Of a stretch of DNA of 49,463 nt, positions 15,180-47,634 are shown piece by piece. The position numbers were made by a program, and so were the translations under genes. The DNA comes from Mollicutes bacterium (lineage in GTDB: Bacteria > Bacillota_I > Bacilli_A > Izemoplasmatales > Izemoplasmataceae). Location: contig PWYL01000070.1 of assembly GCA_003568315.1 (NCBI GenBank), forward strand, positions 79,266 through 128,728. The letters are read 5' to 3'. The notes under the pieces were generated by a model that saw only the letters and a list, made by a program, of their open reading frames with translations, made no database searches and was not told the origin of the DNA. Every line of letters begins with the position of its first letter. Position 1 is the stretch's first letter.

Positions 15180-15403
15180 CATTGATGTCACAAAGGCGAG
15201 GAACCGGAAGCAGTAGCATCGCTCGCGCTTGTTAGAGACCCGGTGGTCGGTGGAAACCGGGAAGCGCACGATGTGAACTCGTCCGGAGAGCCGCGCGGAA
15301 GAAAAGCCGCGACGCCCATCCCGCGTTAAGGGAAAGAGCGCGCACGAACCAAGGTGGTACCGCGGAGATTCTTCGTCCTTGAATCCTTTCAAGGACGTTT
15401 TTT
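15180..15403 (+). promoter_or_regulatory. T-box leader controlling leuS (specifier CUC, leucine)
   Basis: tRNA-sensing leader upstream of leucyl-tRNA synthetase. The specifier codon CTC at 15278-15280 directly follows GTGAA, the usual specifier-loop context, and reads leucine. The T-box core AAGGTGGTACCGCG is at 15351-15364 and is followed by a strong terminator at 15374-15403. Known mechanism: uncharged tRNA-Leu pairs with the specifier and the T-box bulge, forms the antiterminator and lets transcription continue into leuS. Confidence 0.92.
15374..15403 (+). terminator. Regulated terminator of the leuS T-box
   Basis: CGTCCTTGA (15374-15382) pairs with TCAAGGACG (15389-15397) and is followed by a T run. 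It competes with the antiterminator formed by the T-box sequence just upstream. Confidence 0.9.
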
Positions 15404-19734: not shown

Positions 19735-19743
19735 GAGGATTTT

Positions 19744-19968
19744 ATGGCTAAAGGCAGAATCATCATCAACGAGGACAAATGCAAGGGCTGTGATCTCTGT
19801 GTGCATCATTGCCCCGTCGACATCCTCGCTCTCGACACCTCGCGCACCAACAAGAAAGGCTACACCCCCCTCATGGTGACCGACCCCGACAAGTGCATCG
19901 CTTGTGCGTTTTGCGCTATGATCTGTCCGGACAATGTCATCACCGTCGAGAGATTTTCGAAATCCTAA
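19744..19968 (+). CDS. 2-oxoacid:ferredoxin oxidoreductase, ferredoxin (delta) subunit
   Basis: 74-residue 2[4Fe-4S] ferredoxin-like subunit with CKGCDLCVHHCP and CIACAFCAMICP, each a C-x2-C-x2-C-x3-C set. It passes electrons from the thiamine centre to free ferredoxin. It has a TAGGAGG SD and lies 12 bases upstream of the alpha subunit gene. The product is cytoplasmic and works as part of the four-subunit enzyme encoded here. Confidence 0.93.
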   Translation: MAKGRIIINEDKCKGCDLCVHHCPVDILALDTSRTNKKGYTPLMVTDPDKCIACAFCAMICPDNVITVERFSKS

Positions 19969-39955: not shown

Positions 39956-41680
39956 TTGAACGAACACTATCGGATATGGCTCGAAGAGCCCTCTTTGGAC
40001 GAAGAGACCCGCCATGAACTGCAGAACATGACAAAAGAGGGGATCGAGGACGCCTTCCGGAAGGACCTCGCCTTCGGCACCGGCGGCATGCGCGGTATCG
40101 TCGGCGCGGGCACCAACCGTTTGAACCGCTACACCGTACGGAAAGCCGTGGCGGGATACGCGGATTTTCTTATGGATAGGGATGAGATGGCCTCGAAGAA
40201 GGGCGTCGTCATCGCCTACGACAACCGCAACAAGTCTTCCGCCTTCGCGGAAACGGCCCTCGGCGTGCTCGCCGAGAAGGGCATAAAGGCCTATGTCTTC
40301 TCCGACATCCGCCCCACCCCCCTGCTCTCTTTCACCGTGCGGCACCTTTCCGCCGCGGGCGGCATCATGGTGACGGCCTCGCACAATCCTCCGGAATACA
40401 ACGGCGTCAAGATGTATGATGAGACGGGCTGTCAGCTCGTGCCCGCTTTGGCCGACGAAGTGATTGGCCGGGTGGAAGCCATCGCGAACCCTTTCGCGAT
40501 CAAGGAGATGGAAAAGTCCGAAGCGAAAGAACAGGGCCTCTTCGAGCCGTTGGGAGAAAATCTCGACGAAGCCTATCTCGAAGCCGTGAAAGACCTTTCC
40601 TTCCGTCCCGGGGAAGAAAAACGCATCAAGCTCGTCTTCTCGCCTTTGCACGGGACGGGAAGAGAAATCATCCCCCGTGTGCTCGAAGAAAGCGGCTTCG
40701 ATGTCGAAGCCGTCGAAGAACAGCTCGTGCCCGACCCCGCCTTCAAGACCGTGGAGAGTCCGAACCCCGAGAACGAAGCGGCCTTCGCGCTCGCGAAAAA
40801 GCTCGGCGAAAAGACCCATGCGGATTTGCTTGTCGCCACGGATCCCGATGGCGACAGGCTGGGCCTCATGTGTCTTCATGAAGGCGAATATGTCTTTTTG
40901 ACCGGAAACCAGACGGGCGCCATGTTCATCGACTACATGCTTTCGGCCATGGAAGAAAAAGGCACGCTCCCCGAAAAAGGCATCGTCTTCAACACGGTCG
41001 TGACGAGCGAGTTCGGCGCGGCCATCGCGAAAGCCCACGGCATGGAAGTGGAAAGCACGCTCACCGGCTTCAAGTTCATCGGCGAGAAGATGCGTCATCT
41101 CGAAGAAGCGGGGAAGACTTTCGTCATGGGCTATGAAGAAAGCTACGGCTATGTGCTGAAAGACATCACCCGCGACAAGGACGGCGTGCAGGCGACCTTG
41201 CTCGCCGCCGAGATGGCGAACCACTGGAAATTGCGAGGAAAGACCCTCATAGACTACCTCGAGGAACTCTACGACCGTTACGGCTACTATCGCGATCGGC
41301 TTTTGAATCTGAAACTCGAAGGCTTACAAGGTGAAAAACATATCCGCCGCATCATGGAGACGTTCCGCTCCTATGAACCAAAAAGCCTTCTCGGCAGGAG
41401 ACTCCTCGCCAAAGAGGACTACCTTGAAGGCATCCGCAGGAGCGAAGCGGGGAAAGAGAGACTGCCCCATCCCTCATCGGACGTCGTCAAGTTCATCTTC
41501 GCGAAGGACCTCTGGTTTGTGCTCCGTCCCAGCGGCACGGAGCCGAAGCTGAAAATCTATCTCAACGTCAAGGGTGACACGAAAGAAGAAGCCGACGGCC
41601 TTTTGGACAAGATGGAAGAAGAAATCTCTGCGATCGTGGAATCCGCCAAAACGAATGATACGGAAGGTGCATCCTTATGA
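39956..41680 (+). CDS. pgcA: Phosphoglucomutase/phosphomannomutase
   Basis: 574 residues of the alpha-D-phosphohexomutase family. Phosphoserine loop VTASHNPPEYNGVKMYDETG, metal loop DPDGDRLG, sugar-binding GYEESYGYVLKD, and phosphate-binding RPSGTEPKLKIYL. Interconverts glucose-6-phosphate and glucose-1-phosphate, feeding GlgC or taking product of GlgP. The TTG at 39956 is nine bases after AAGGGG and downstream of the promoter; the GTG at 39920 is at the transcription start. The gene overlaps rnfC by four bases, which puts a sugar-phosphate enzyme at the head of the Rnf transcript. Confidence 0.93.
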   Translation: MNEHYRIWLEEPSLDEETRHELQNMTKEGIEDAFRKDLAFGTGGMRGIVGAGTNRLNRYTVRKAVAGYADFLMDRDEMASKKGVVIAYDNRNKSSAFAETALGVLAEKGIKAYVFSDIRPTPLLSFTVRHLSAAGGIMVTASHNPPEYNGVKMYDETGCQLVPALADEVIGRVEAIANPFAIKEMEKSEAKEQGLFEPLGENLDEAYLEAVKDLSFRPGEEKRIKLVFSPLHGTGREIIPRVLEESGFDVEAVEEQLVPDPAFKTVESPNPENEAAFALAKKLGEKTHADLLVATDPDGDRLGLMCLHEGEYVFLTGNQTGAMFIDYMLSAMEEKGTLPEKGIVFNTVVTSEFGAAIAKAHGMEVESTLTGFKFIGEKMRHLEEAGKTFVMGYEESYGYVLKDITRDKDGVQATLLAAEMANHWKLRGKTLIDYLEELYDRYGYYRDRLLNLKLEGLQGEKHIRRIMETFRSYEPKSLLGRRLLAKEDYLEGIRRSEAGKERLPHPSSDVVKFIFAKDLWFVLRPSGTEPKLKIYLNVKGDTKEEADGLLDKMEEEISAIVESAKTNDTEGASL

Positions 41681-42981
41681 TCACCGGATCGAGAAGAGTC
41701 AGCGATTACAAACAACTCATGAAAGAACTGCCCACCCTCCGCCATGTCGACCCCGAAAGGGTCTATATCAACCTTCCCGGCGAAAGGTGTCCGAAATACA
41801 CCGTCCATGTGGAAAAGGGCGCCAAGGTCAAACTGGGCGAGATTCTCGGCGAGCGCGACGGGGGCTTTTTCAAACAGCCCATCTATTCGACCGTGAGCGG
41901 CACCGTAGAAGGCACGACCGAAAAGACCGACGCCTCGGGCGAAAAGATCGAGTGTCTCGTCATCAAGAACGATTATCAGGACACCTATCATGAAAGCATC
42001 ACCGACCGCCCCGACAGCGTCATCGCCGACTTCAAGAAGAAGGACTTCGTCGAGATTCTCAAAGACAAGGGTCTCGTGGGACTCGGCGGCGCCGCCTTCC
42101 CCTCCTACATCAAGCTCGACACCGACAAGGACATCCACACCGTCGTCATCAACGCCGTCGAATGCGAACCCTACCTTTCGAGCGACTACCGCCTCATCAA
42201 GGACCAGCCCGAAGACATCTTCAAAGGGCTCTCCTATGTCATGCAGGCAATAGAGGCCGACCGCGGCGTCATCGCCGTCAAGAAGACGAAGCGGGAGCTC
42301 ATCGAGGTCTTGGAGCGTGAACAGGGCCGTTTCGCCGACAAAGATATCCGGATCGCCAAGCTCGACGACTACTATCCGCAAGGTTGGGAGAACGCCACCT
42401 TCGAGAAGGCCATCGGCATCAAGGTCGATGTCGGCACACTCCCCATGGAAAAGGGCATTCTCGGTTTCAACGTCTCCACGTGCGCCGCGATCTACGAGGC
42501 GGTAAAACACAACCTTCCCGTCATCAAGCGGCATCTGACCGTGAACGGCGACGCCGTGAAATTCCCGCAAAACATCCGCGCCCGTGTGGGCACGAGTGTC
42601 AAGGAACTCATCGAGCTCTGCGACGGTTACCGTGCGGACGCAAAAGCGGTCGAGGTCATCCTCGGCGGCCCGATGATGGGGAAAAGCATCCCCGATGACG
42701 ATGCCATCGTCACCCAGACGACGACATCCGTCCTCGTCTTCGAAAGCACGGACCACATCGAGGAACCCTGCGTGCGTTGCGCGTCATGCGTCTACAGCTG
42801 CCCCGTCGATATCCAGCCCGTCTCCATCATGAACGCCGTGAAGCGCAATGACGAAAAGGCCGCCCAAGAACTCCGGGCCGACAGATGTATCGAATGCGGT
42901 CTTTGCGCGTATGTGTGCACCTCCAAGATCCATGTGACCGACTATGTCCGAAAAGGCAAAGCGTTGACAGAAACCAAATGA
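41677..42981 (+). CDS. rnfC: Rnf electron transport complex subunit C
   Basis: 434-residue peripheral subunit that exchanges electrons with NAD. GLVGLGGAAFPSYIKL is the NADH/FMN fold signature near residue 134; AVECEPYLSSDYRL and a SLBB-like segment follow. Two [4Fe-4S] motifs: Cys365, 368, 371, 375 and Cys404, 407, 410, 414. The length is normal for a Gram-positive RnfC. Overlaps pgcA by four bases; 12 bases separate it from rnfD. In this operon RnfC holds the only two-cluster ferredoxin-type domain, since RnfB is truncated. Confidence 0.95.
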   Translation: MITGSRRVSDYKQLMKELPTLRHVDPERVYINLPGERCPKYTVHVEKGAKVKLGEILGERDGGFFKQPIYSTVSGTVEGTTEKTDASGEKIECLVIKNDYQDTYHESITDRPDSVIADFKKKDFVEILKDKGLVGLGGAAFPSYIKLDTDKDIHTVVINAVECEPYLSSDYRLIKDQPEDIFKGLSYVMQAIEADRGVIAVKKTKRELIEVLEREQGRFADKDIRIAKLDDYYPQGWENATFEKAIGIKVDVGTLPMEKGILGFNVSTCAAIYEAVKHNLPVIKRHLTVNGDAVKFPQNIRARVGTSVKELIELCDGYRADAKAVEVILGGPMMGKSIPDDDAIVTQTTTSVLVFESTDHIEEPCVRCASCVYSCPVDIQPVSIMNAVKRNDEKAAQELRADRCIECGLCAYVCTSKIHVTDYVRKGKALTETK

Positions 42982-42993
42982 TAGGGTGATACC

Positions 42994-44256
42994 ATGGAGA
43001 TCGTGACAAAAAGCAGTCCTCATCTGCGCCGGCCCCAGGCCCGTGTGACAAGGATGATGCGTGATGTGAGCATCGCGCTTTTGCCGCTCGTCATCTTCGC
43101 CATTGTCCAACACGGACTCACGGCGCTTTGGATCCTCCTCGCCGCCGTCTTCTCGATGACGGCCACCGAATACATCTTCTATCAGGTCATGGACTTGCTC
43201 GAGAGGATGCGGGAGGCCAAGAGCGAAACGGAAGAAAGCATCCGCGATTTGCGGGCCGAGAAGAAGGAACTCCGCGCCGAAGCGCGAAAGAAGAAGACGG
43301 AAGAAACCAAAGAGGCCTATGAATCCTTCCTTTCCACCTACAAGGAGAAACTCGCGCCCTTGAAGGAGAAACGCAAGGAAGAGAACAAGACGGCCCCGAC
43401 CGAGGAGAACAAGTCCTTCCGTCTTTGGAATAGCGGTTTCACGCTCACCAATTTCAGCGTCGTGACGAGCGGTGTGATCTATGGTCTCACGCTTCCCGAT
43501 GCAATCCCCCTCGCCGTCGTCATGATCGGCGGTGCGGTGGGCCTACTCCTCGCGAAACTCATCTTCGGCGGCATGGGACAGAACATCTTCAACCCCGCCG
43601 CCTTCGCCCGGGTGTTCGTCGTGCTCTCGTTCGGCACTCTCCTTTCCTATGAAGCCTTCGTCGCCGACGGTGCCGCCGGCGCGACCCCGATGACTTTCTT
43701 GAACGAGTACATCTTCGATTCTTCGGTGACGGACCACTACGGCATCTGGACGCTTTTCTCGGGCATCGGACTTCCCGGCAGCCTCGGCGAGACGAGCGCG
43801 TTGCTCATCCTCGTCGGCGGGCTCTATCTCGCTTTACGTCGTTCGTTCGACCCCGTCGTCCCCTTGACCTATATCGGCACCGTGTTCCTGCTTTCCTTGA
43901 CTGTCATGTTTTCTCAGGGACTGGATTTCTGGTTTCCCCTCGTGCACCTTTTCGGGGGCGGCCTCCTCTTCGGTGCCGTCTTCATGGCGACCGATCCCAT
44001 CACGAGTCCCGTGACACGACCCGGGAGAGTCTATTTCGCTTTCGGGCTCGGTGTCGTGACCTTCCTCATCCGCATCTTCGGCAATCTTCCCGAGGGGGTC
44101 GTGTTCGCGATCCTCATCATGAACATGTTCGTTCCCGCCCTGGATTATCCGAGATGGGCGAAAAACCGTTTTTCCGCCCGTGCCGCCGTCATTTTCGCCA
44201 TGGTGGTCGTGGCGGCTGTAATCATTACGAATGTGGGGGTCCATTATGTTGGATAA
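42994..44256 (+). CDS. rnfD: Rnf electron transport complex subunit D with coiled-coil insertion
   Basis: 420 residues, longer than the usual 310-350. Membrane helices typical of RnfD/NqrB, GGMGQNIFNPAAFARV, ATDPITSPVT and a C-terminal helix bundle. Covalent FMN site DGAAGATP with Thr231; the usual Ser/Thr three residues before it is Ala. Between helices 2 and 3 (about residues 66-142) is an added, very charged Lys/Glu-rich helical segment predicted to be coiled coil, absent from RnfD proteins I know. Overlaps rnfG by 11 bases. Confidence 0.93.
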   Translation: MEIVTKSSPHLRRPQARVTRMMRDVSIALLPLVIFAIVQHGLTALWILLAAVFSMTATEYIFYQVMDLLERMREAKSETEESIRDLRAEKKELRAEARKKKTEETKEAYESFLSTYKEKLAPLKEKRKEENKTAPTEENKSFRLWNSGFTLTNFSVVTSGVIYGLTLPDAIPLAVVMIGGAVGLLLAKLIFGGMGQNIFNPAAFARVFVVLSFGTLLSYEAFVADGAAGATPMTFLNEYIFDSSVTDHYGIWTLFSGIGLPGSLGETSALLILVGGLYLALRRSFDPVVPLTYIGTVFLLSLTVMFSQGLDFWFPLVHLFGGGLLFGAVFMATDPITSPVTRPGRVYFAFGLGVVTFLIRIFGNLPEGVVFAILIMNMFVPALDYPRWAKNRFSARAAVIFAMVVVAAVIITNVGVHYVG

Positions 44257-45661
44257 ACTGAGAATGGCCTTGATTCTCTGTATCATCGGGGCCGCGAGCG
44301 GCCTCGGCATCGTGGCGGTGAACTCCTTCACCGAGGACATCATCGAACAAAACCGCATACGGGAGGAACTCGAGATCTATTTCGACCTCTATGGTCTTGA
44401 AAAGCCCGCCAGTTTCGACCGCGACGATGAGCCCAGAGACATCTATTGCCGTTGGGAAGCCGCCGGCTATGATTCCGAGCGGAACCGTATCGGCGAGATT
44501 CACACCTATTGTGTGGATGACGACCGCGTCCACGAACGCGCGGAAATCTTCGACAAGGAAGGGAACTTCCTCGGCAAGGTCTTCCGTGTCGACCACACGA
44601 ACACCTACGGCCTGGTCGTGACGCTTGTCGCTTTGGATGCGGAAAACGAGATTGTCGAAGTCCGCATCGCCCGTCACGAGAACACGCCGAACTATGCGAG
44701 AAGGATCATCGACAACCACCTCGAGCCCTTCCAAGGACAAGACATCAACGATGTCTCCTTCTATGACGGTCGCACCGGCGCCACCTCGACCTACGGCAGT
44801 ATCATCCACGCCGTGAATGCGACCGCGGACAATGTCGTGGACGACAGGGCGCTTACCGACTACCGGGTCTTCTATCCCGAGGCGGAAAGCTACGAAAGGG
44901 TCTTCGATTACACCCTCGGCTGCATCGACGCCCGTATCGCGGTCTATGACGGCGATGACGAGCTTTTGGGTCATGTCTATCCCGCCCGCTACGCAAACGA
45001 CCATGAAGAGATCGCCTTGAACATCGCGATAAGCGAAGGCATCTTCAAAGGCGTGCGCGCGGCAAGACCGGACGACAGGGCTTCGGAAGAGCTCTTGCAG
45101 GCGCTGGAAAAATACGAGGAGTTGGATGGTTCGCCGATCGGCGAAGTCGAAGTCGACTTCGACGAAACGGCCTATGATCCCTCCATCAACCGTCTCGTCA
45201 CCCAGGCGATCATCCGCTGCCAAGAATCCGACCACGAACGCGAGATGCGCGAATTCTTCCTTTGGAGCCATGAACAAGACGAAACGGCCGATATCGACCA
45301 TGACATCCTCCAAAGTTACCAGGCCCACTATGACGAAGAAAACGACCTCATAGGCCATGTCTATTATGGCGAATACGACACCTCGGATCTCACGGACGCC
45401 TATGACGGCGGCATCATGGAAGTCGCCGTGGCCGTTTTCACTGACGGCACGATAAGCAGTGTGCACCTTCTTTCAAGTGAAGAGAGCGATTTCGCCGTGC
45501 GCACATTGGAAGAGAACATCCGCGTCTTCTTCACACGTTCCGAAGACATGGATGAAGATGAACTTGCGGACGCTTTCAGCGGCTCGACCACGAGTGCGAC
45601 CGGTCTGAACGCGATTGTCGAGGCCGCATTGGATTACGAAGATGCAAGGGAGGGTGATTGA
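44246..45661 (+). CDS. rnfG: Rnf electron transport complex subunit G with three FMN-binding-like repeats
   Basis: 471 residues; usual RnfG is about 180-220. An N-terminal helix (about 5-25) anchors an external domain. Three similar units start with LGKVFRV (110), LGHVYPA (241) and IGHVYYG (369). Unit 1 has the flavinylation motif DGRTGAT with acceptor Thr180 and then the helix SIIHAVNA. Unit 3 ends STTSATGLNAIVEAAL with Thr452. Unit 2 lacks the Thr motif. The protein is strongly acidic. The ATG at 44246 is six bases after GGGGG. Confidence 0.9.
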   Translation: MLDKLRMALILCIIGAASGLGIVAVNSFTEDIIEQNRIREELEIYFDLYGLEKPASFDRDDEPRDIYCRWEAAGYDSERNRIGEIHTYCVDDDRVHERAEIFDKEGNFLGKVFRVDHTNTYGLVVTLVALDAENEIVEVRIARHENTPNYARRIIDNHLEPFQGQDINDVSFYDGRTGATSTYGSIIHAVNATADNVVDDRALTDYRVFYPEAESYERVFDYTLGCIDARIAVYDGDDELLGHVYPARYANDHEEIALNIAISEGIFKGVRAARPDDRASEELLQALEKYEELDGSPIGEVEVDFDETAYDPSINRLVTQAIIRCQESDHEREMREFFLWSHEQDETADIDHDILQSYQAHYDEENDLIGHVYYGEYDTSDLTDAYDGGIMEVAVAVFTDGTISSVHLLSSEESDFAVRTLEENIRVFFTRSEDMDEDELADAFSGSTTSATGLNAIVEAALDYEDAREGD

Positions 45662-45663
45662 CC

Positions 45664-46437
45664 ATGGCGCAAAAACAGACCGCCAAGAAGGGCAAGCGCA
45701 AAAAGGATCTGCACGCCCTCGCCGTCTTCACCCGGGGTATCATCCGGGAAAACTCCCTGTTCGTGCTGCTTTTGGGCATGTGTCCCGCCCTCGCCGTCAC
45801 GAGTTCGCTCGAGACGGGGTTCGGCATGGGACTGCTCGTCATCTTCGTCTTGACATTATCGAACATCGTCGTGAGTCTCATCCGCAAGGCCATCCCCGAA
45901 GAGATCCGCATTCCCGCCTACATCGTCGTCATCGCGACCTTCGTGACGATCGTGGGACTCTTGACGGAAGCCTTTGCGCCCGCCCTACATGAATCCTTGG
46001 GCATCTTCATCCCGCTCATCGTCGTGAACTGCCTCATCATGGAGCGCGCGAACAATTTCGCCTCCAAGAACAACGTCGTGCTTAGCGCCATCGACGGCAT
46101 CGGTGTGGCCCTCGGCTTCATGCTGGCCTTGATGCTCATCGGGGGAACGCGGGAGTTCTTGGCGACGGGCGCTCTCGCCTACGGCGTCTATCTCCCCCTC
46201 CCCTTGGAAGGGTCCATCATCAACGCGGGACTCACCCTCTTCCAGATGGAGGTCTTCGTGGGACCCGCCGGCGGTTTCATCGTCATCGGTTTCTGGCTCG
46301 CGGTCTTCAAAGCTTTCGAACTCTACAACAAGCGCAAGAAGAAGGAAGCCCGCGACCGCTGGATCGAGAAGAAGAAAAAAGAGGCGGCGGAAAGAAAACG
46401 CCGCAAAGCCATGGAAAGTGCAGGTGGTAGCGCATGA
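45664..46437 (+). CDS. rnfE: Rnf electron transport complex subunit E
   Basis: 257 residues, longer than the usual about 200 because of a basic N-terminal stretch (QKQTAKKGKRKK) and a Lys/Arg-rich tail of about 40 residues. Six helices. The two conserved half-helix Cys motifs that hold the intramembrane [2Fe-2S] cluster with RnfA are present: LLGMCPALAVTSS and LIVVNCLIMERA. Sits between rnfG (2-base gap) and rnfA (4-base overlap). Confidence 0.94.
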   Translation: MAQKQTAKKGKRKKDLHALAVFTRGIIRENSLFVLLLGMCPALAVTSSLETGFGMGLLVIFVLTLSNIVVSLIRKAIPEEIRIPAYIVVIATFVTIVGLLTEAFAPALHESLGIFIPLIVVNCLIMERANNFASKNNVVLSAIDGIGVALGFMLALMLIGGTREFLATGALAYGVYLPLPLEGSIINAGLTLFQMEVFVGPAGGFIVIGFWLAVFKAFELYNKRKKKEARDRWIEKKKKEAAERKRRKAMESAGGSA

Positions 46438-47039
46438 GTCCGACCGTCTTCTTCGTGGCCATCATCTCGGCCATGCTCATAAACAACGTGGTGTTGTTGC
46501 GATTCCTCGGGGTCTGCCCCTTTTTGGGCGTTTCCAAACGCTCGGAGACCGCCCTCGGCATGGGCGGCGCCGTGACCTTCGTCATGGTCGTGGGAAGTGT
46601 CCTCACCTATCTCATCTACTATTATGTCTTGGAACCCTTCGAGATCACCTACATCTCGACCATCGCCTTCATCCTCGTCATCGCTTCCCTCGTGCAGCTT
46701 GTGGAGATGTTCATCAAGAAAGTGAGCAAGAAACTCTACAAGGCCTTAGGCATCTATCTTCCGCTCATCGTCACGAACTGCGCGATCCTCGGTGTCGCGG
46801 AAACGAACATCCGCGAAGGATACGCCGAAGAGTTCGGCGTCATGAGCGGCCTCGGTGTCGCCGCGGCAAGCGCCTTCGGCGCGGCCCTCGGTTTCACGCT
46901 CGTCATCTTCGCTTTCTCGAGCATCCGCGAGAGGCTTGAAGCCGCCAATGTGCCCGCCGCCTGGAAGGGCATCCCGATCTCCTTGATCGTCGCCGGCATC
47001 ATGGCGCTCGCCTTCCTCGGACTGGAGGGGATCGTCTGA
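46434..47039 (+). CDS. rnfA: Rnf electron transport complex subunit A
   Basis: 201 residues, normal length. Six-helix integral subunit with the two Cys motifs LRFLGVCPFLGVSK and LIVTNCAILGVA that pair with those of RnfE to bind the intramembrane iron-sulfur cluster. Other typical segments are SMLINNVVLLRFLG-like at the N terminus (ISAMLINNVVLL) and IYLPLIVTNC. The stop TGA overlaps the ATG of a small cysteine-rich gene (TGATG), showing tight coupling. Confidence 0.95.
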   Translation: MSPTVFFVAIISAMLINNVVLLRFLGVCPFLGVSKRSETALGMGGAVTFVMVVGSVLTYLIYYYVLEPFEITYISTIAFILVIASLVQLVEMFIKKVSKKLYKALGIYLPLIVTNCAILGVAETNIREGYAEEFGVMSGLGVAAASAFGAALGFTLVIFAFSSIRERLEAANVPAAWKGIPISLIVAGIMALAFLGLEGIV

Positions 47040-47215
47040 TGGTACCGGCAATCGTCGTGACGATGCTTGTCGTCTCTTTGTTCTTCGGAACATACATCAT
47101 GAACAAGCGCACGCCCGAACCTCTGGAGGCCGAAGAGGTCGTCGACAAGGAGTCCTGCACAGCCTGCATGAACTACAGCTGCCGCTATAAAATCGAAGAG
47201 ACAAGGGGGGATTGA
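47039..47215 (+). CDS. Small one-helix protein with Cys-x2-Cys-x4-Cys motif, NqrM-like candidate
   Basis: 58 residues, not recognised as a named family. One hydrophobic helix (about residues 3-21, PAIVVTMLVVSLFFGTYIM), a Glu-rich linker and a C-terminal ESCTACMNYSCRY cluster (Cys40, Cys43, Cys48). It starts on the TGATG overlap with rnfA and ends one base before rnfB, so it is coded as an integral operon member. NqrM, a small one-helix Cys protein, is needed to mature the intramembrane iron-sulfur cluster of the related NQR. This protein has that general layout without clear sequence identity. An alternative is an extra Rnf subunit. Confidence 0.75.
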   Translation: MVPAIVVTMLVVSLFFGTYIMNKRTPEPLEAEEVVDKESCTACMNYSCRYKIEETRGD

Positions 47216-47216
47216 C

Positions 47217-47522
47217 ATGGCCGCCATATTGACACTGGGCATCCTCGGCGCCCTCTTGGGCTTGGGCCTCGCCATCGCGGCGGAAGTCTTGAAGGTCGAG
47301 CCCGACAAACGCGTCCAAGATATCGAGAAACTCCTCCCCGGTGCCAACTGCGGCGCCTGCGGCTATCCGGGCTGCAACGCCTTCGCCGAAGCCATCGTCG
47401 AAGGCGAAGTGAAAAACCTCTCCGTCTGCAAGCCCGCCAATGAGAAGACCTACAAAGAGATCATCAAATATCTCAAAGATCATCCCGACAAAGACGGCAA
47501 CGTCATCAAGGTCGAAAAGTGA
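47217..47522 (+). CDS. rnfB: Truncated Rnf subunit B (membrane anchor plus one cluster)
   Basis: 101 residues. The N-terminal helix (about 2-21) and the PF04060-type four-Cys domain are intact: LLPGANCGACGYPGCNAFAEAI with Cys45, 48, 53 and 71. It then ends after a short charged tail. Ordinary RnfB has 180-330 residues, with two further [4Fe-4S] ferredoxin clusters, here missing. The reading frame ends in TGA followed at once by a strong terminator, and no ferredoxin motif continues in any frame downstream, so this is not a simple frameshift. Electrons would have to enter through another ferredoxin-domain protein. Confidence 0.92.
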   Translation: MAAILTLGILGALLGLGLAIAAEVLKVEPDKRVQDIEKLLPGANCGACGYPGCNAFAEAIVEGEVKNLSVCKPANEKTYKEIIKYLKDHPDKDGNVIKVEK

Positions 47523-47548
47523 GCCCCGGAGGACCGGGGCTTTCCTTT
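47523..47548 (+). terminator. Intrinsic terminator of the rnf operon
   Basis: GCCCCGG (47523-47529) and CCGGGGC (47534-47540), four-base loop, T-rich tail. It begins directly after the rnfB stop. Confidence 0.93.
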
Positions 47549-47561: not shown

Positions 47562-47634
47562 GTGTTGGAACGCCTATCCAAGCCCTCGCCCCCGCCCGTT
47601 TTTATTGAAAAAGGGTGGTGGGAATGCTATAATG

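Follow-up and report, generated by a model that had tools for sequence, protein, structure and literature searches.

Electron transfer through Rnf begins with ferredoxin, which reduces the clusters of RnfB, and continues through the RnfB domain termed B8 or FdI to the [2Fe-2S] cluster of RnfA and RnfE, then from the FMN of RnfG to the flavins of RnfD, the clusters of RnfC, FMN and finally NAD (PMC11889175, PMC12174285). In solved Rnf, B8 is the RnfB domain that reduces the RnfA/E cluster and RnfC provides the NAD site, while the clusters of RnfB and RnfC are separated by more than 30 Å and direct transfer between them is not expected (PMC11889175). The RnfB proteins of A. woodii, Clostridium tetanomorphum and Azotobacter vinelandii (9eri, 7zc6 and 8ahx) comprise a membrane helix and FdI/B8 together with two to seven further [4Fe-4S] clusters, their distal domain being the presumed dock for ferredoxin. 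A shorter version is known from Thermotoga maritima, where RnfB has a mass of 10.56 kDa and one predicted [4Fe-4S] cluster, and where the purified complex oxidises C. pasteurianum ferredoxin and transports Na+ (PMC7414866). This protein was described as FdI only in the paper on the C. tetanomorphum structure (PMC9588780). Rnf has been reported earlier in Izemoplasmatales as well, with no remark on RnfB in the consulted portions of those reports (PMC6256511, PMC7301438, PMC8397711, PMC7761423).

The current analysis concerns an rnf operon in a 49,463-nucleotide stretch of DNA, hereafter the window, from a Mollicutes bacterium that is related most closely, among named organisms, to "Mollicutes bacterium" MAGs and Candidatus Izimaplasma/Izemoplasma. 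The genes are closely packed on the + strand in the order rnfC, rnfD, rnfG, rnfE, rnfA, orf58 and rnfB. RnfC (41677-42981; 434 aa; TIGR01945, 348.8 bits) is the NADH/FMN subunit and, by cysteine count, carries the usual two [4Fe-4S] motifs (Cys 365-375 and 404-414) and no more. RnfD (42994-44256; 420 aa; over the TIGR01946 cut-off) has an AGAT flavinylation motif at 228-231, whereas RnfE (45658-46437; 259 aa; PF02508 and NF009070) and RnfA (46434-47039; 201 aa; over the TIGR01943 cut-off) each keep both [2Fe-2S] cysteines (42 and 125, and 28 and 116, respectively). RnfG (44231-45661; 476 aa) matches PF04205 twice, the first of its FMN_bind-like stretches containing a TGATS motif and the second a degenerate flavin motif. 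With this duplicated FMN-binding-like region, it differs in length from the RnfG of orthologous operons in relatives (175-211 aa). Members of family f3 exhibit a further variation, an extra gene of approximately 230-590 aa between rnfD and rnfG (L039:5642-7402, L045:6022-7218 and L047:6087-7268), which in L039, the sole one of the three searched, encodes multiple FMN_bind domains. Thus, all five of the other subunits are found beside rnfB with their cofactor residues kept, and the initial annotation was justified in stating that the operon does not look decayed. The operon contains no gene for NqrF, the reductase subunit with FAD and a [2Fe-2S] cluster that Na+-NQR has instead of RnfB, and its RnfC has clusters, unlike the NqrA of that complex.

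The rnfB gene itself (47217-47522, + strand) encodes only 101 residues, as the initial annotation had recorded from the open reading frame. Its product scores 72.2 bits against the NCBIfam rnfB model TIGR01944 (cut-off 68.7), although the match spans only positions 6-92 of 190. The translation has a computed mass of 10.72 kDa and consists of a membrane helix (residues 2-24), a four-cysteine [4Fe-4S] domain (Cys 45, 48, 53 and 71; Pfam PF04060, E 1e-14) and a conserved C-terminal helix (residues 76-88), which bears out the view that the anchor and the cluster domain are intact. An AlphaFold model (mean pLDDT 91) likewise depicts one long membrane helix, a small four-cysteine fold and a C-terminal helix, and the solved structures that match it best are A. 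woodii RnfB (41% identity to 9eri_B by structural alignment) and the N-terminal [4Fe-4S] domain of the corrinoid iron-sulfur protein (2ycl; rmsd 1.2 Å over 52 columns). The latter shares the small fold, but belongs to a soluble methyl-transfer protein rather than a membrane electron carrier. Beyond the last cysteine, short RnfBs share the pattern Y..I..YL..HP..DG, and the conservation of this C-terminal segment suggests that the end of the protein has been selected rather than broken. Searches with Pfam and NCBIfam profiles found no Fer4 domain in the protein. The initial annotation had therefore been correct that the distal Fer4 region (FdII/III) is absent, but not that a ferredoxin domain is lacking altogether, since the retained four-cysteine domain is FdI/B8, itself a [4Fe-4S] ferredoxin-like domain. 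Nor does this place the protein outside of its family: a distal Fer4 is not universal and is not treated here as defining for RnfB, because the T. maritima protein is without one too.

The likeness to T. maritima, which is based upon published size, cluster count and gene order, extends to the rnfCDGEAB arrangement, an RnfB of approximately 10.6 kDa, one predicted [4Fe-4S] cluster and the lack of a distal ferredoxin domain. The two differ in that orf58 is located between rnfA and rnfB here, and in that the present system belongs to another lineage, the Izemoplasma-type Tenericutes. As this short kind of RnfB was already known and has been biochemically validated in T. maritima (PMC7414866), its occurrence does not by itself imply a new electron feed, and the different electron entry proposed by the initial annotation is not required.

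A supply of ferredoxin is also encoded. The source assembly (1.41 Mb, 96.6% complete) includes a pyruvate:ferredoxin oxidoreductase (PFOR) and two classical small 2[4Fe-4S] ferredoxins on C3. Within the window, a small 2[4Fe-4S] ferredoxin-like protein (19741-19929, + strand; PF12838/PF00037) adjoins 2-oxoacid:ferredoxin oxidoreductase-like genes, to which TIGR02176 matches weakly, and this locus could be a source of reduced ferredoxin. Elsewhere in the window, an 827-aa ORF on the + strand is preceded by a T-box leader (15190-15383; RF00230, 112 bits). A search of the entire assembly, at its 96.6% completeness, detected no second rnfB, and thus no full-length version. Similarly, no orphan RnfB C-terminal domain was identified among the Fer4_21/Fer4_10 matches examined genome-wide, which excludes some matches from individual identification, including C76:16458, C14:14807 and C23:9933. 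Those examined as candidates for the missing part of RnfB proved to be soluble ferredoxins, PFOR, RnfC, hydrogenase and MinD-type ATPases. At G000:C79 (L181), two MinD-type ATPases contain inserted 2[4Fe-4S] ferredoxin modules and are adjoined by small proteins, which are possibly of the NifX/NafY type.

Because the short RnfB of T. maritima is active and this genome encodes both PFOR and ferredoxins, direct reduction by soluble ferredoxin is the most likely mode of entry. We are accordingly confident, if short of certain, that the window encodes an ordinary six-subunit Rnf, a ferredoxin:NAD+ oxidoreductase pumping Na+ or H+, which is equipped with a T. maritima-type RnfB whose four-cysteine domain receives electrons directly from soluble ferredoxin. 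PFOR would produce the reduced soluble ferredoxin, which would meet the one-cluster FdI/B8 domain directly; the flexible domain might then swing to the inner face of RnfA/E to reduce their shared [2Fe-2S] cluster, from which electrons would proceed to the RnfG FMN, the RnfD flavins, the clusters and FMN of RnfC, and NAD+. The retained domain is the final RnfB stop on the electron path and needs mobility in order to reach RnfA/E. With the distal clusters absent, the donor must meet the four-cysteine domain, and ferredoxin presumably docks on this domain of RnfB itself. To our knowledge, no ferredoxin docking site has been mapped on a short RnfB, that of T. maritima included. By analogy, the behavior of T. 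maritima Rnf presumably holds in this organism too. As for the separate ferredoxin-like protein that the initial annotation had offered as a point of entry, the idea survives only in the form of an ordinary soluble ferredoxin, for which no new route is needed.

One further candidate within the operon is orf58 (47039-47215, + strand), which was recognized by its conservation in relatives and encodes 58 residues with one membrane helix and a C-x2-C-x4-C tail. It is found between rnfA and rnfB in approximately 28 genomes of family f1 as well as in another family (G061; in L196, within an operon that joins cytochrome bd genes to rnf). Five of its residues are invariant (N22, P28, C40, C43 and C48), and its substitution rates are dN 0.12 and dS 0.92. 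We take its layout to recall that of NqrM (PF04400), a likeness in architecture only. Both have one membrane helix and a short cysteine-rich tail and are encoded inside an Rnf/Nqr operon, but there is no sequence match between them: none of 18 orf58 members matched any Pfam family, PF04400 included, and a genome-wide PF04400 search for NqrM comparison genes returned no match, as was also the case with the controls. By this analogy, orf58 may be an NqrM-like cluster assembly factor; the [2Fe-2S] cluster of NQR depends on NqrM (PMC12174285).

The conservation of orf58 at this position is one of two observations that would suit a different scenario, in which a dedicated partner (a hydrogenase, PFOR or orf58) replaces the missing clusters and free ferredoxin is not the donor. 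The other is the existence in relatives of paralogous Rnf operons that place a [FeFe]-hydrogenase and a NuoF-type cluster protein beside a short RnfB. However, the operon in the window includes no such enzyme, the three conserved cysteines of orf58 would not suffice to bind a [4Fe-4S] cluster by themselves, and the T. maritima complex works without an added partner (PMC7414866), all of which makes a dedicated partner improbable. Poorer still are the prospects of the proposal, raised in part by the initial annotation, that electrons enter via RnfC, or that the complex runs in the NADH-driven direction only, with RnfB as a structural remnant. The absence of the distal ferredoxin-docking domain would be in keeping with such a role, but the four cluster cysteines are invariant in 26 diverse short RnfBs, RnfC has no clusters beyond its usual pair, and in solved Rnf it forms the NAD site at a distance from the RnfB clusters (PMC11889175). 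In light of these observations and of the T. maritima precedent, we consider this proposal highly unlikely.

Several features of the 3' end of the operon and of its relatives bear upon whether the short RnfB is genuine. A GC-rich hairpin terminator with a 9-bp stem and an AGGA loop (47521-47542, + strand, from folding) overlaps the rnfB stop codon; at -18 kcal/mol, it was equaled in stability by none of 200 shuffles, which agrees with the earlier remark that a terminator follows at once. This hairpin is absent from the list produced by an automatic terminator scan, probably because the extended stem takes up part of the T tail. Downstream, the promoter scan located an extended -10 promoter-like site (TTGAAA-17-TATAAT; 47605-47633, + strand) before the next gene, which encodes pyruvate phosphate dikinase according to its domain matches, and this site makes rnfB the probable last gene of the rnf transcript. 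The interval from the hairpin to the dikinase gene contains no ORF of note that could represent the remainder of rnfB in a shifted frame. A similar short ORF is the best RnfB match in 53 of 61 relatives, covering all three families of the order (Izemoplasma-type Tenericutes). Across the class, in a sample of 247 genomes, 111 of the 120 N-terminal RnfB matches listed, drawn from 97 genomes, fall within stop-to-stop frames of 92-154 aa, and the other nine are longer (183-433 aa) and come mostly from two families; among the matches listed, most Rnf operons of the class thus appear to encode a short RnfB. A family alignment search yielded 80 named loci, 44 of them short (79-108 aa) and 36 long (169-358 aa, the 169-aa protein running off its contig), and the short ones derive from Izemoplasma/Izimaplasma, Acholeplasmatales/Anaeroplasma, Erysipelotrichaceae-type MAGs and one MAG labelled Leptotrichiaceae. 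In a tree of RnfA, RnfE and RnfD (70 rows, 714 columns), 41 short and 29 long forms are split by a single change with a support of 100, a result that describes this sample only, as patterns from short RnfB served to find its rows, which include neither T. maritima nor the class's own long forms. Relative to the nearest species, rnfB has a dN of 0.035 and a dS of 0.56 (dN/dS approximately 0.06; 0.16-0.26 versus others), indicating that the gene is under purifying selection. Metagenome assemblies can contain genes cut short by single-base errors, and it is conceivable in principle that a normal rnfB was sequenced wrongly, frameshifted or recently truncated, yet no result here points that way and the conservation of the short form refutes it: the same length recurs in dozens of independent assemblies, the terminator directly follows the stop codon, and a Fer4 motif occurs in any frame within 900 nt downstream in only one (L141) of the 39 short forms with enough sequence, so that we assign this explanation virtually no weight. 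The short RnfB is not a product of decay, but a real, functional-looking and lineage-wide form.

Relatives also encode paralogous Rnf cores, neither type of which was found in the window's own genome. The first type is associated with hydrogenase (L032:265-8250, L035, L038, L044, L175, L176 and L179) and is ordered as a NuoF-type [4Fe-4S] protein, a group A [FeFe]-hydrogenase, a divergent rnfC, rnfD, a long rnfG, rnfE, rnfA and a short rnfB; a family search identified the hydrogenase in L032, and those of L175, L176 and L179 were recognized by their similarity to it. A rearranged operon of this type also adjoins cydAB (L195:5428-17949, - strand). The second type, cydA-cydB-rnfD-rnfG-rnfE-rnfA-rnfB with a short rnfB and no rnfC, occurs at L033:4285-9839, L034:829-6252, L036:13999-19450 (- strand), L173:3241-8664, L174:1645-7155 and, in another family, L196:1790-7371 (- strand). 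Its CydA is approximately 390 aa in length and can be aligned with E. coli CydA as far as about residue 254 and then from residue 387 onwards, a gap which implies that the quinol loop of roughly 130 residues is missing. RnfD lacks the GAT flavinylation motif in the five family f1 copies, four of which keep the motif in RnfG, whereas the RnfD of L196 does have a GAT. Furthermore, no UbiA-type prenyltransferase was found in eight genomes of the family, whereas all 14 controls have one. Taken together, the missing quinol loop, the missing UbiA and the motif pattern of RnfD and RnfG suggest that these relatives may possess a quinone-free cytochrome bd fed by Rnf. The link between Rnf and cytochrome bd is weakened by L197, in which a CydA without the quinol loop has no rnf neighbor within the stretch read. 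It is possible, though we hold this only tentatively, that in this lineage an exchangeable Rnf core has the short RnfB as its standard input stub and may be combined with RnfC, as in the window, with an [FeFe]-hydrogenase, or, in the absence of any RnfC, with a cytochrome bd devoid of its quinol-binding loop. This last combination would be an oxidase fed by ferredoxin and free of quinone, with the RnfG flavin, which faces outward, reducing heme b558 directly.

The more surprising material therefore lies outside of the window, in the operons of relatives where the Rnf core is joined with either a hydrogenase or a cytochrome bd without its quinol loop. For Rnf itself, the one-cluster RnfB known until now from T. 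maritima proves to be the rule in a large group of Tenericutes and of bacteria resembling Erysipelotrichia, and RnfB can dispense with its distal ferredoxin domain over deep evolutionary time.
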